This document shows, piece by piece, positions 55,091 to 59,067 of a stretch of DNA of 64,000 bases (positions are counted from its first letter, which is position 1; the number at the start of each line of letters is the position of its first letter). Position numbers and translations under genes: made by a program. Location of the stretch: NCBI GenBank assembly GCA_030835125.1, contig JAUQWM010000049.1:1-64000 (forward strand), written 5' to 3'. Source of the DNA: Gemmatimonadaceae bacterium. Lineage in GTDB: Bacteria; Gemmatimonadota; Gemmatimonadetes; Gemmatimonadales; Gemmatimonadaceae. The notes under the pieces are model-generated. The model did no database searches, had not been told where the DNA came from, and saw nothing but the letters and a program-made list of their open reading frames with translations.

Positions 55091-55370
55091 CGTTGGTGGC
55101 CCGCGGTGAGGGATTCGGTGCGTCTGCCGCAACCGGTGGAGGTGGTGCCCGACGGCGACCCGGTTTGGCAATGCGCGTGCCAGCACGGTCCGGGTCCGTC
55201 GATGTGACGGCGCGGCTTGCACTTGCCATGGCAGGCCGAGGGTGCGGGCCCGCCGCGCCGGCGCCACTCGTCAGGCGTGCGCTGCGTCACAGGTGTGGCG
55301 ACCGTTCCACGTGACACCCGGTTCGCGGAAGGTCACAGGCATCACTCGTCAGGCACGCGCGTCGTTAGGC

Positions 55371-55495
55371 GTGACGAAACCGGTCGTCCGCGTGACGATC
55401 GGGCGCGCTGCGTGATGGAAACGCACGCCGGCGTGACGGCGAGCGTCGCCCGCGTGACGATCGTGGTCGCTGGCGTGACAAGACGGCCGGCGGGG
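55371..55495. repeat. 21-bp degenerate tandem repeat array (GTGACG motif)
   Basis: GTGAC(G/A) or GTGAT recurs at 55371, 55392, 55412, 55433, 55454 and 55475, i.e. every 20-21 bp. Each unit has the pattern GTGACGA, seven variable bases, then CGCYSGC. Related GTGAC or GTCAC elements continue leftward at 55311, 55332 and 55286, and CACTCGTCAGGC occurs twice (55265, 55343). The stretch 55091-55500 contains no gene. It could be a phased protein-binding array or the decayed relic of a seven-residue coding repeat. Confidence 0.75.
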
Positions 55496-55500
55496 TCGAC

Positions 55501-56754
55501 CTACAGCCGCGGGTCGACCACCTTGCCGAGGAAGAGGACGGTCCCCGTCAGGCGTTCGCGGATGGCGAAGACGAACGGCCGGTCGACCCGCACGATGGCG
55601 GGAGGTGGGGAGGGCTGGCTGATGAGTCCCGTTGCGATTACCGTGACCGCGGCTGCTCTCGTCCCTTCCTCGTCGACGTCCACGACTGCGTCCTGCTTCA
55701 CGTATGTGACAAAGAGGTCCCTGGCGTACTGCGCGGACAGGGGGGCGAAGTCGGACCCCGGCTCGAAGACCTCCTGAATTCCGAGCCGTCGGAGCGGCTG
55801 CTGCAGCGTATCGGACCAAACCAGCTTGAACTTCGGGAGGTGCACTTCCCCAACGTGGTCGACGAACCCGTTGATCCCCTCACTCACGAACCTGTCCGCT
55901 GTGAGCGCCTCGACCCACTCATCAAACGCGATGGCGGGCGGCGGGATGAGCACGGTCATCACGAACGCATCGCCACCATAGGGCACCTCGATCGTCTGCG
56001 TGCCCTCGCGCGACATGTGGTAGCGTCCTGGTCCCTTTCTGACCATGGTCGGCACGTTCACCGGGCTTCCACTCCGCACATGGAATGGCGCGGGCCGGGC
56101 CGCCTCAAACTGCCCGTTCCAGGTCCCCTTGAAGAAGACCGTGTTGGCGAGCATCACCTTCGCACCAATCGTCGACTCGATCACGCGCTCGACCAGGCCA
56201 TTCGTCTCGCGGCGGGCCCAAGCGTTGATGGTATCGACCGATTCTGGAGTTCCCATGATCAACCCGTCGCTCGTGGCGGCGAAATACTCCCGCAGGTTCG
56301 ACAGAAAACGCCGTTCGACGGACGGCCCGAACGAGCGGTGGTACCACAGCGCATTCGACAGCCCAATGTTGACAGCTGGGTCCAGGCCCTTCAGCAGCCC
56401 GACGAGGTCGCGATAAGCGACATTGATCTCATCTTGCGACCGACTGCCGAAGCCCAAGGCCTGACGCAGCTCGGCGAACGTCGTGGTCCCGGTGCCGTTC
56501 ATGAGCATGCCGAGCGCGATGGTAGCGCTCAACGGCGAGATCACCACGTTCTTGTCGCGCCAGCCGCGATTGACCTCGCGTAGCAGGTTGAAGGCGAAAG
56601 GTCCTGAGCCCGCGACGATCGCCTGTTCTGCTTCCGACAGGGCGCGCGGCAGGCTGGTGATCGCTGCAGGAGCGTCCGAGTTGGGTGCGGCAGGATCGGC
56701 ACAGGCCGCACCTGCCAGGATGGCTGCACAAAATATCGATTGCGTCTTACGCAT
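55501..56754 (-). CDS. Serpin-family protease inhibitor, lipoprotein
   Basis: 417 residues. A lipobox-like signal (ILAGAACAD) anchors it. Serpin signatures include KNVVISPLSATIALGMLMNG, NALWYHRSF, MLANTVFFKGTWNGQF and VHLPKFKLVW. The hinge EEGTRAAAVT (about residues 362-371) fits the consensus of inhibitory serpins, and counting from it puts Ile-Ser at P1-P1' (inference). The C terminus RPFVFAIRERLTGTVLFLGKV is normal. It lies 33 bases downstream of the S1 protease gene. Base composition is lower in GC than the flanks, suggesting transfer. Confidence 0.93.
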   Translation of the reverse strand: MRKTQSIFCAAILAGAACADPAAPNSDAPAAITSLPRALSEAEQAIVAGSGPFAFNLLREVNRGWRDKNVVISPLSATIALGMLMNGTGTTTFAELRQALGFGSRSQDEINVAYRDLVGLLKGLDPAVNIGLSNALWYHRSFGPSVERRFLSNLREYFAATSDGLIMGTPESVDTINAWARRETNGLVERVIESTIGAKVMLANTVFFKGTWNGQFEAARPAPFHVRSGSPVNVPTMVRKGPGRYHMSREGTQTIEVPYGGDAFVMTVLIPPPAIAFDEWVEALTADRFVSEGINGFVDHVGEVHLPKFKLVWSDTLQQPLRRLGIQEVFEPGSDFAPLSAQYARDLFVTYVKQDAVVDVDEEGTRAAAVTVIATGLISQPSPPPAIVRVDRPFVFAIRERLTGTVLFLGKVVDPRL

Positions 56755-56787
56755 TCGTACCTCCCATAGACCTGCGCTTCGGGCTCG

Positions 56788-58500
56788 CTAGCACGCGTAC
56801 TGACCGCACCAGCTGACAGTGATGCTCGCGAGAGCATAATTGCCAAACGCATCCCAGACGAGCACTTCCAGCAAACCACCGGTGTTGGGCGTGGCAGTAA
56901 TCGAACTCTGACTCCCCGTTACGGCGCCGCCGAATCCCGCCCAGTAATACCAGAATGGTCCATCCGAACCACTAGGCACTACTTCCCACGTCTGTTGTGC
57001 TCCCTGCCAGGTCGTCGTTGGACCGTCGATCGTAGCCGACATACCAAATGATGAACCCGGACTCCCCGCTGGTCTTGGCGACAAGTACCTGCTGAGGTGC
57101 GTCTCAATGGCACCCCATTCACTGAACAACCAGCGGCAGTTCGCGATACAGTACCGCACGTTGAAGTCGCTACCATCCGGGTTACTGAACGTGATGCCGC
57201 TGGGATCCAGTGCGCCGTTTACTATGCCGATTGCATACGGTGGATTCCCTTGCACGTCCGACGGATAGAACACCGGGGACCCGCTATCTCCGTCCCCAGC
57301 ACTGGCGTCGCGTACTTCGTGAAAGCAGAGGAACGCATAATAGGCAATGAACTCGTTCTTGCATGTGTTGCTCACCCAGCCGCCGGTCACGCCGGTGGTT
57401 CGCCCGACCTTGTACACGGTGTCGCCTGATGCCACCCAGGGTACCGGTTCAATGTTCGCCCAATACCCGACGCCGTCAGGAATCGTACGTGGCGACCGGG
57501 TGTTGGTGCTGACGTGGTCGTTCCATTCTTCGGTCGCCCGGATCCTCATCACAAACGTACTCGATGTCGAGTCGTTCGCCTGTACAAACGCGACGTCCGC
57601 TCGCGTACACCACAGTTTGCTTTGACAAGCTGTTTCCGTCAGATCCCATGGCGGATTGAGCGTGACTTCCCCGACAACATCATTGCCGGTGACTGTGCTC
57701 TGATAGACGTCGTCACCAGTGACGCCATCGCCATTGGTTCCCACGTCGCAGTGCGACGCCGTCAGCCAACCTTTCAGGTCATAATTGAGGACGCGTACTG
57801 GGAAGCCAATGGTACAGAGACCGCTGTCGACGCCATTGCTCACAAACATCTGGCTGCCGCCGTAAACAGGGCGCGACCGGTCGCGAAGATCACCGCTCAG
57901 GAGTCGCATTCCGGACGAACCGCGTATTTCCACCGCGTCCACGGAAACACCGAGCTGAGCCAGGGTGCTCAGAATGAGATCTTCGCCGGCGCGTCCACCG
58001 GAGTGCTCTATTTCAACCCGATTGATCGCCTCATTGGCGTCCACGGACATGTATCCTTCCAATCGCAGTTCCCGGGAAATCAGCTCCTGCCATGCCACGA
58101 GCTCCGAGAACCGATACTTGCCTTGCCTCACCATGATCCCACCCGGAGCCTCGAGTCGAGCGCGAACTGCGGGCCGCAGACGCAGTGCGCGGCTCATGCC
58201 TCTTAACACGACCAACGCCTGGTCCTGGTTAGCAGTTGGTGTGAGATAGACCGTGGGCCTCCCGGTCAGGCGATCGACGAAGATGCCACCCAAGCCGGGA
58301 ATCCGAGCCTCCATCCGAAGGATCTCGTCCTCGAATCCCCGGACTGTCCTTCCCCGAACAGCCGCTACCAGTTGCGCGTTCGCCCCCTCGTGCAAGCCGC
58401 TACCAAGACGACGGGTAGTCTGTTCCCGGGGGGGGCCTGCGGGCTCCGGATGGCACGCCGTGACGAGAAAGCACAGCGCCGACAGTAGCTTCCGCTTCAT
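56788..58500 (-). CDS. Secreted trypsin-like (S1) serine protease with long propeptide, lipoprotein signal
   Basis: 570 residues. A signal with a lipobox-like FLVTAC precedes a propeptide of about 215 residues with alpha-lytic/streptogrisin-like features (YLTPTANQDQALVVLRGMS, FSELVAWQELISREL). The catalytic triad is intact: LTASHCDVG (His about 250), TRADVAFV (Asp about 300) and GDGDSGSPVF (Ser about 410). Numerous Cys suggest disulfides. The C-terminal 95 residues form an Ig-like module (TIDGPTTTWQGAQQTWEV). The protease is probably exported and anchored. Lower GC than neighbours supports acquisition by transfer. Confidence 0.9.
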   Translation of the reverse strand: MKRKLLSALCFLVTACHPEPAGPPREQTTRRLGSGLHEGANAQLVAAVRGRTVRGFEDEILRMEARIPGLGGIFVDRLTGRPTVYLTPTANQDQALVVLRGMSRALRLRPAVRARLEAPGGIMVRQGKYRFSELVAWQELISRELRLEGYMSVDANEAINRVEIEHSGGRAGEDLILSTLAQLGVSVDAVEIRGSSGMRLLSGDLRDRSRPVYGGSQMFVSNGVDSGLCTIGFPVRVLNYDLKGWLTASHCDVGTNGDGVTGDDVYQSTVTGNDVVGEVTLNPPWDLTETACQSKLWCTRADVAFVQANDSTSSTFVMRIRATEEWNDHVSTNTRSPRTIPDGVGYWANIEPVPWVASGDTVYKVGRTTGVTGGWVSNTCKNEFIAYYAFLCFHEVRDASAGDGDSGSPVFYPSDVQGNPPYAIGIVNGALDPSGITFSNPDGSDFNVRYCIANCRWLFSEWGAIETHLSRYLSPRPAGSPGSSFGMSATIDGPTTTWQGAQQTWEVVPSGSDGPFWYYWAGFGGAVTGSQSSITATPNTGGLLEVLVWDAFGNYALASITVSWCGQYAC

Positions 58501-58556
58501 GTCTGAGGGCCTCGTTAGGTGTTTCTGCCCCTTCAGCTGTGGCTGAGATCGACATC

Positions 58557-58585
58557 AGGATACGGACAATTTGACCTGTCCGCAA
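58557..58585 (-). promoter_or_regulatory. Candidate promoter with overlapping palindrome upstream of the protease
   Basis: On the minus strand TTGCGG and TATCCT are spaced by 17 bases, a sigma-70-like layout, and the palindrome GGACAGGTCAAATTGTCC overlaps the spacer. It lies about 57 bases upstream of the protease ATG. The matches are moderate. Confidence 0.35.
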
Positions 58586-59035
58586 CCTTGAGGCGTTACC
58601 TCAGGCTAGGCGTTTGCCAAAAAGGTCCTCATTGACCCAAATGGTGACGGCCACAGTCATACCGAGTGTGAGGTTCACCCTAACGCCTGGCGTATCGGCA
58701 CGCTGAATACGCGCGATCGGGTGTCGAAGCGACGTGCCGAACGCGAAGGAGGCCGCTGACCCTCTAGCGACGTCTTGGACCCGTCACTTTGGCGCGGTGC
58801 GGTACTCAACCCCTGTGGTGTTCGATATAGCATGCCTACTCATCGGTCTTCCATACTGACGGATGGTGCCCGGACTCGGCGCACTGTCGGCGCTGCATTC
58901 TCGAAGGCTGGTGCCGGGCCGGACACGGCGCGAACCAAGGCCAGTCACTGTCGACCGGCATTGAGGCACACACCTCGTTCCGGCCCGCTCGAAAGCATCG
59001 GTCAACCATGTCGACGAAGCATGAGCAAGAACAAA
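58586..59035. other. Gene-free stretch, lower GC
   Basis: About 450 bases with no convincing gene on either strand. It holds the TGAGG-CGTTA-CCTCA inverted repeat (about 58590-58604) and short open frames without coding character. It separates the protease/serpin island from the ridA terminator and may carry the rest of the island promoter or transfer scar. Confidence 0.5.
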
Positions 59036-59067
59036 GGGCATTGCAGCGCGCAGCGGCTGCAATGCCC
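59036..59067 (-). terminator. Terminator downstream of the RidA-family gene
   Basis: Stem GGGCATTGCAGC/GCTGCAATGCCC with an eight-base loop, followed on the minus strand by TTTGTTCTT. Confidence 0.75.

Follow-up and report, generated by a model that had tools for sequence, protein, structure and literature searches.

A lipoprotein serpin gene in the partner position behind an alpha-lytic-type protease gene in a Gemmatimonadaceae bacterium

In the window, the 64,000-nucleotide stretch of Gemmatimonadaceae DNA analysed here, a gene for a lipoprotein serpin directly follows the gene of an exported S1 protease and occupies the position that an Ig-like protein holds in the closest relatives of that protease. 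We propose, with a probability of about 0.6, that this operon encodes an exported protease together with its dedicated membrane-anchored antidote, and that the type of inhibitor has been swapped. According to this proposal, the protease would be exported as a lipidated pro-enzyme, folded with the help of its own propeptide and released by propeptide cleavage, presumably through autoprocessing. The serpin, made from the same message, would be lipidated at Cys18 and remain attached to the cell envelope, its reactive loop accessible; active protease returning to the cell would cut the loop near Leu377-Ile378-Ser379 and be trapped covalently. The slot behind the protease gene would be an exchangeable inhibitor position, for which relatives use small exported Ig-like (BsuPI-type) proteins; in the lineage of the window, this slot would have been taken by a second copy of the serpin that the family normally carries, and the loop of this copy would have changed.

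We examined the locus (Table 1) and found both genes complete on the minus strand, with positions and spacing exactly as given by the initial annotation; each encodes a protein that opens with a signal sequence and a lipobox. No terminator-like site was detected by a terminator scan of the 33-bp gap between them, and the serpin gene has a strong ribosome site (GGGAGGT). Together with the short gap and the shared strand, this context agrees with the single operon that had been proposed, and co-transcription of protease and serpin is the most likely arrangement. Upstream, the hairpin with its T-run closes a RidA-family gene, so that the pair probably forms its own transcription unit; promoter prediction is unreliable in the non-coding stretch 5' of the protease, and the transcript start is placed there as probable. 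Between the serpin stop codon and the next gene lie four diverged copies of a 43-nt repeat (GCGTGACG-like units at 55368-55493, with spacing of 21 and 41 bases).

Table 1. Features of the protease-serpin locus (positions in the window)
Feature	Position	Strand	Basis
S1 protease, exported, 570 aa	56788-58500	-	ORF, ATG start
Lipobox Cys16 of protease; propeptide to about residue 210	within 56788-58500	-	sequence
Catalytic triad of protease: His250; Asp302; Ser406	57751-57753; 57595-57597; 57283-57285	-	conserved alignment columns
C-terminal Ig-like domain of protease, residues about 487-570	56788-57040	-	
Protease-to-serpin intergenic gap, 33 bp	56755-56787	-	sequence
Shine-Dalgarno GGGAGGT, 4 nt 5' of serpin ATG	56759-56765	-	sequence
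Lipoprotein serpin, 417 aa	55501-56754	-	ORF, ATG start; PF00079
Serpin hinge and reactive-centre loop, EEGTRAAAVTVIATGLIS-QPSPPPAIV	55579-55671	-	alignment A2 and loop statistics
Non-coding stretch 5' of protease, probable start of protease-serpin transcript	58501-59035	-	terminator scan
Terminator-like hairpin and T-run, closing upstream RidA-family gene	59036-59067	-	terminator scan

The protease had been described as a complete trypsin-fold enzyme with a long propeptide. We found the His250, Asp302 and Ser406 columns to be invariant or nearly so in an alignment of relatives (in alignment A1, which omits Met1, these residue numbers are one lower). A profile built from 15 relatives retrieved alpha-lytic protease and the streptogrisins (E 4e-12 to 1e-10), and the best Foldseek match of the medium-confidence structure model (pLDDT 65) was alpha-lytic protease 1gba (E 2e-10); a His/Asp/Ser triad in a chymotrypsin fold is thus supported by conserved columns and by both profile and fold matches. 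What did not hold is membership of the Pfam trypsin family: the match to PF00089 (E 0.0026, 18.0 bits) lies below the gathering score of 20.6, and no Pfam family matched the protease above its cut-off. Since the score places it as a divergent relative, we call the enzyme alpha-lytic-like. It shares with alpha-lytic protease and the streptogrisins the catalytic domain (profile E about 1e-11) and a large propeptide; unlike them, it carries a lipobox and an extra C-terminal Ig-like domain. For the alpha-lytic pro-domain PF02983, the window protein gave no match and one relative E 0.96. Its S1 pocket, read by alignment to alpha-lytic protease (Ser189, Ala190, Val213, Ala216), would suit a medium hydrophobic P1 residue such as Ile or Leu, and so would be compatible with the Leu/Ile of the serpin loop. 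The profile search also revealed a resemblance of the protease family to plant NARROW LEAF 1 (PDB 7y77, E 4e-9), and Pfam Nal1_C matched 7 of 15 family members weakly; its C-terminal Ig-like domain also occurs in a subtilase encoded elsewhere in the order, by a different genome (L018).

Serpins are suicide-type inhibitors of protein-cutting enzymes. The window serpin matches PF00079 with E 1.2e-79 over 364 residues (profile positions 5-370 of 370, hence a full-length domain); this is the only Pfam family in the window's partner gene, which does not qualify as BsuPI (PF12690). Among solved structures, miropin (5ncs) stands closest to it, at E 4e-50, and the fold of its structure model (pLDDT 86, pTM 0.85) matches tick serpin 3nda as well as miropin. 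The lipobox Cys18 is invariant in 29 relatives (alignment A2), in keeping with its annotation as a lipoprotein serpin, and we infer that the protein is lipidated at this residue. Across positions P17-P9 the hinge reads EEGTRAAAV and fits the inhibitory consensus E-x-G-T-E-A-A-A-x with a sole departure at P13, an Arg in place of the Glu found in 126 of the 134 serpins read. Judged by its residues, the hinge is of the inhibitory type; the description of it as consensus stands for every position but this one. In the alpha-1-antitrypsin register, the predicted P1-P1' bond is Ile378-Ser379, a pair that occurs in 2/134 serpins (T-S in 86/134), so that L-I-S replaces the usual V-T-S of the loop, and the prime side is longer and Pro-rich. 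In the structure model, residues 370-381 form a low-confidence, exposed stretch that corresponds to the loop. The P1 residue could lie a few residues off Ile378; miropin uses several bonds.

We then considered where this serpin stands among its relatives. The initial annotation had regarded bacterial serpins as uncommon, but in Gemmatimonadota they are ordinary, being present in 180/395 genomes of the phylum and in 117/288 genomes of the order. The host genome itself has two: besides the window copy, contig 26 carries the lipoprotein serpin typical of the family, with a V-T-S loop. Identity between the window copy and the family's typical serpins reaches 44-47% at most, and the copy is without a closer relative; in the tree it is nested within the serpin clade of the host family, on a branch of length 0.8 (median 0.31). 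By this phylogeny, it is a fast-evolving in-family duplicate rather than a foreign gene. Tandem arrays of two or three consecutive serpin genes were seen at several loci (L189, L198, L203, L201, L148, L210 and L134); such arrays occur in Poribacteria, Neomarinimicrobiota, Bacteroidota and others.

Support for a link between the two genes comes from what lies behind other members of the protease family. We analysed 60 family loci in which the protease end was intact and at least 500 bp of downstream sequence was available. In most, the next gene codes for a small protein bearing an export signal, mostly at a gap of about -10 to 100 bases. An exported protein within 150 bp downstream was found for 41/60 proteases, compared with 84/409 other long ORFs (p 3e-13) and 36/110 serpins (p 1e-5); these p-values are optimistic because the loci are related and the export signal was called by a simple hydropathy rule. 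PF12690, the BsuPI "intracellular proteinase inhibitor" family, was matched by 16 of 49 next genes (E <= 0.01). When a profile built from 13 of the BsuPI-matching slot proteins was run against the protease loci together with 101 loci of serpins, it gave 24 matches, none of them in a serpin locus. Profile comparison showed two kinds of slot protein to be related (hhalign 93%, E 3e-7), and a second, looser profile, which also matched 2 ORFs in serpin loci, was used to count a BsuPI/Ig-like ORF as the next gene in 31 of the 60 loci; in the other 29, the window's among them, an Ig-like partner is not recognisable. The window protease belongs to a clade (support 100/97) with proteases of the same genus (G001) and the same family (G008), whose Ig-like partners begin 21 bp and -4 bp downstream, and the second such protease of the host genome (L100 4790-6644, G000 contig 16) is followed after 19 bp by an Ig-like lipoprotein. 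Hence, the serpin occupies in the window the position held by an Ig-like protein in the closest protease relatives. The slot extends outside the order, where two loci (L283, L290) have a BsuPI-profile match behind the protease. We suspect that the Ig-like slot proteins act as inhibitors. The host genome also has a separate BsuPI protein (L268 5057-5539, G000 contig 52), of a kind that most of the family has in roughly one copy per genome; it lies away from any such protease and adjoins a MoxR-type ATPase gene and the ATP synthase genes.

The idea of a protease with its cognate inhibitor thus gains context from the partner slot of the protease family; what is not repeated is this particular pair, which is known from one genome. 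Among the matches listed, no other of the 288 order genomes has a serpin gene immediately adjacent to a protease of this family, and the pair was not found in the 390-395 phylum genomes searched. In every genome but the window's, the serpin and protease matches listed lie on separate contigs or far apart, the protease counts being lower bounds as the profile search scores 4-5 candidates per genome. The nearest case is the phylum member G216 (L272 6139-11659), in which about 2.2 kb, containing other ORFs, separates a serpin from a protease relative on the same strand; genomes related to G216 carry the same serpin without a protease at that place. The product of the ORF adjoining the G216 protease resembles an exported or outer-membrane protein. 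The sequences flanking 101 other serpin loci (1.3 Mb, many phyla) gave no match to a looser form of the S1 motif or to the protease profile, 100 same-strand neighbours of serpins classified with Pfam shared no common partner family, and a contig scan with the protease alone as query returned no match. The initial annotation had looked to linkage of the two genes in other genomes as a check on their pairing; read literally, there is none in the genomes examined. Taken alone, this absence would weaken the idea. What recurs is a protease with some small exported partner instead of the serpin pair.

Base composition had been read as a sign that both genes were acquired together. The lower GC was borne out: 59.7% for the protease (GC3 0.67) and 63.8% for the serpin (GC3 0.80), against 66-72% for the neighbours (GC3 0.87-0.95). 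However, relatives of the protease elsewhere are often GC-poorer than their surroundings (0.61 versus 0.70 in the same genus), as is the other protease of the family in this genome (0.59 versus 0.66), so that composition is weak evidence for transfer. In the trees neither gene falls outside the host lineage, the serpin lying within the host-family clade and the protease with same-genus and same-family proteases. We therefore rejected acquisition as a unit. A search for an empty site with the two flanking genes found no relative in which both occur together.

We weighed the antidote proposal against other explanations. The main rival, which we hold to be unlikely, is that the serpin shields the envelope against foreign proteases, released by competitors, predators or lysing neighbours, and that its operon link to the protease reflects nothing more than a need for both under the same conditions. 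Nearly all of the order genomes that have a serpin have it without a protease neighbour, which makes stand-alone function the norm, and published bacterial serpins have mostly been discussed in relation to host or environmental proteases (PMC8233489, PMC10090351). Such a shield leaves unexplained why the serpin should stand in the slot of the small exported partners and why its loop should depart from the conserved V-T-S. That just one of the genomes examined has the pair would also fit a serpin duplicate that landed by chance behind a functionally unlinked protease gene. We consider this improbable: by our estimate, the odds of a random insertion on the same strand immediately after either of the genome's two such proteases, out of some 4000 genes, are on the order of 1 in 2000, and the tight spacing, intact Shine-Dalgarno sequence and intact reading frames point to retention.

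A slightly smaller chance still is left to the possibility that the slot proteins, and the serpin with them, assist the protease in folding or export or serve as its substrate adaptors instead of inhibiting it. They are indeed diverse, small and exported, and the function of BsuPI is disputed (PMC3901451), but the best-represented slot family, PF12690, and the window's PF00079 are both annotated as protease inhibitors despite their unrelated folds, and the window serpin retains an inhibitory hinge. The antidote proposal accommodates both the slot and the changed loop, and we infer that the serpin forms a complex with the neighbouring protease.

Operons of a protease and its inhibitor are a known kind of system. 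In the KLIKK protease/potempin operons of Tannerella forsythia, a secreted protease is adjoined by a small lipoprotein reported as its inhibitor (PMC4404884, PMC7296668). Both systems combine a protease gene with an adjoining lipoprotein gene and have partners that vary between pairs, and T. forsythia likewise has a stand-alone serpin, miropin. The differences are that the lipoprotein gene precedes the protease in T. forsythia whereas the partner gene lies downstream in the window, that no serpin has been reported as a KLIKK partner, that phylum and protease families differ, and that the window protease ends in GQYAC and lacks the KLIKK C-terminal domain. By analogy, the window pair would work like KLIKK/potempin, of which it is not a member. 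With miropin and other bacterial serpins of PF00079, whose endogenous targets have been described as unknown (PMC10090351), the window serpin shares the fold and the inhibitory hinge; unlike it, the 101 other serpin loci scanned have no S1 motif or protease relative nearby. BsuPI/IPI of Bacillus subtilis (PF12690, 3ISY), with a fold unrelated to that of serpins, represents the family whose members occupy this downstream position in the relatives. Rigden et al. found no IPI homologue near a subtilisin gene in the complete genomes then known and left the inhibitor status of IPI/BsuPI open, and BsuPI proteins were removed from MEROPS (PMC3901451); here, in contrast, genes of the BsuPI type directly follow those of S1 proteases. 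In the open-access literature searched, we found no description of a serpin in such a protease slot and nothing relevant on serpins of Gemmatimonadota.

More broadly, though with confidence somewhat short of even, we suggest that alpha-lytic-type proteases of Gemmatimonadota have an exchangeable slot for a cognate inhibitor, that the BsuPI-type Ig proteins are true S1 inhibitors, and that a serpin has replaced them here. If the antidote proposal is right, this would be a bacterial serpin with a dedicated target produced by its own cell. An accepted inhibitor fold at the place taken in the relatives by BsuPI-type proteins would make both the question of serpin targets and that of BsuPI as an inhibitor testable with two small protein pairs.
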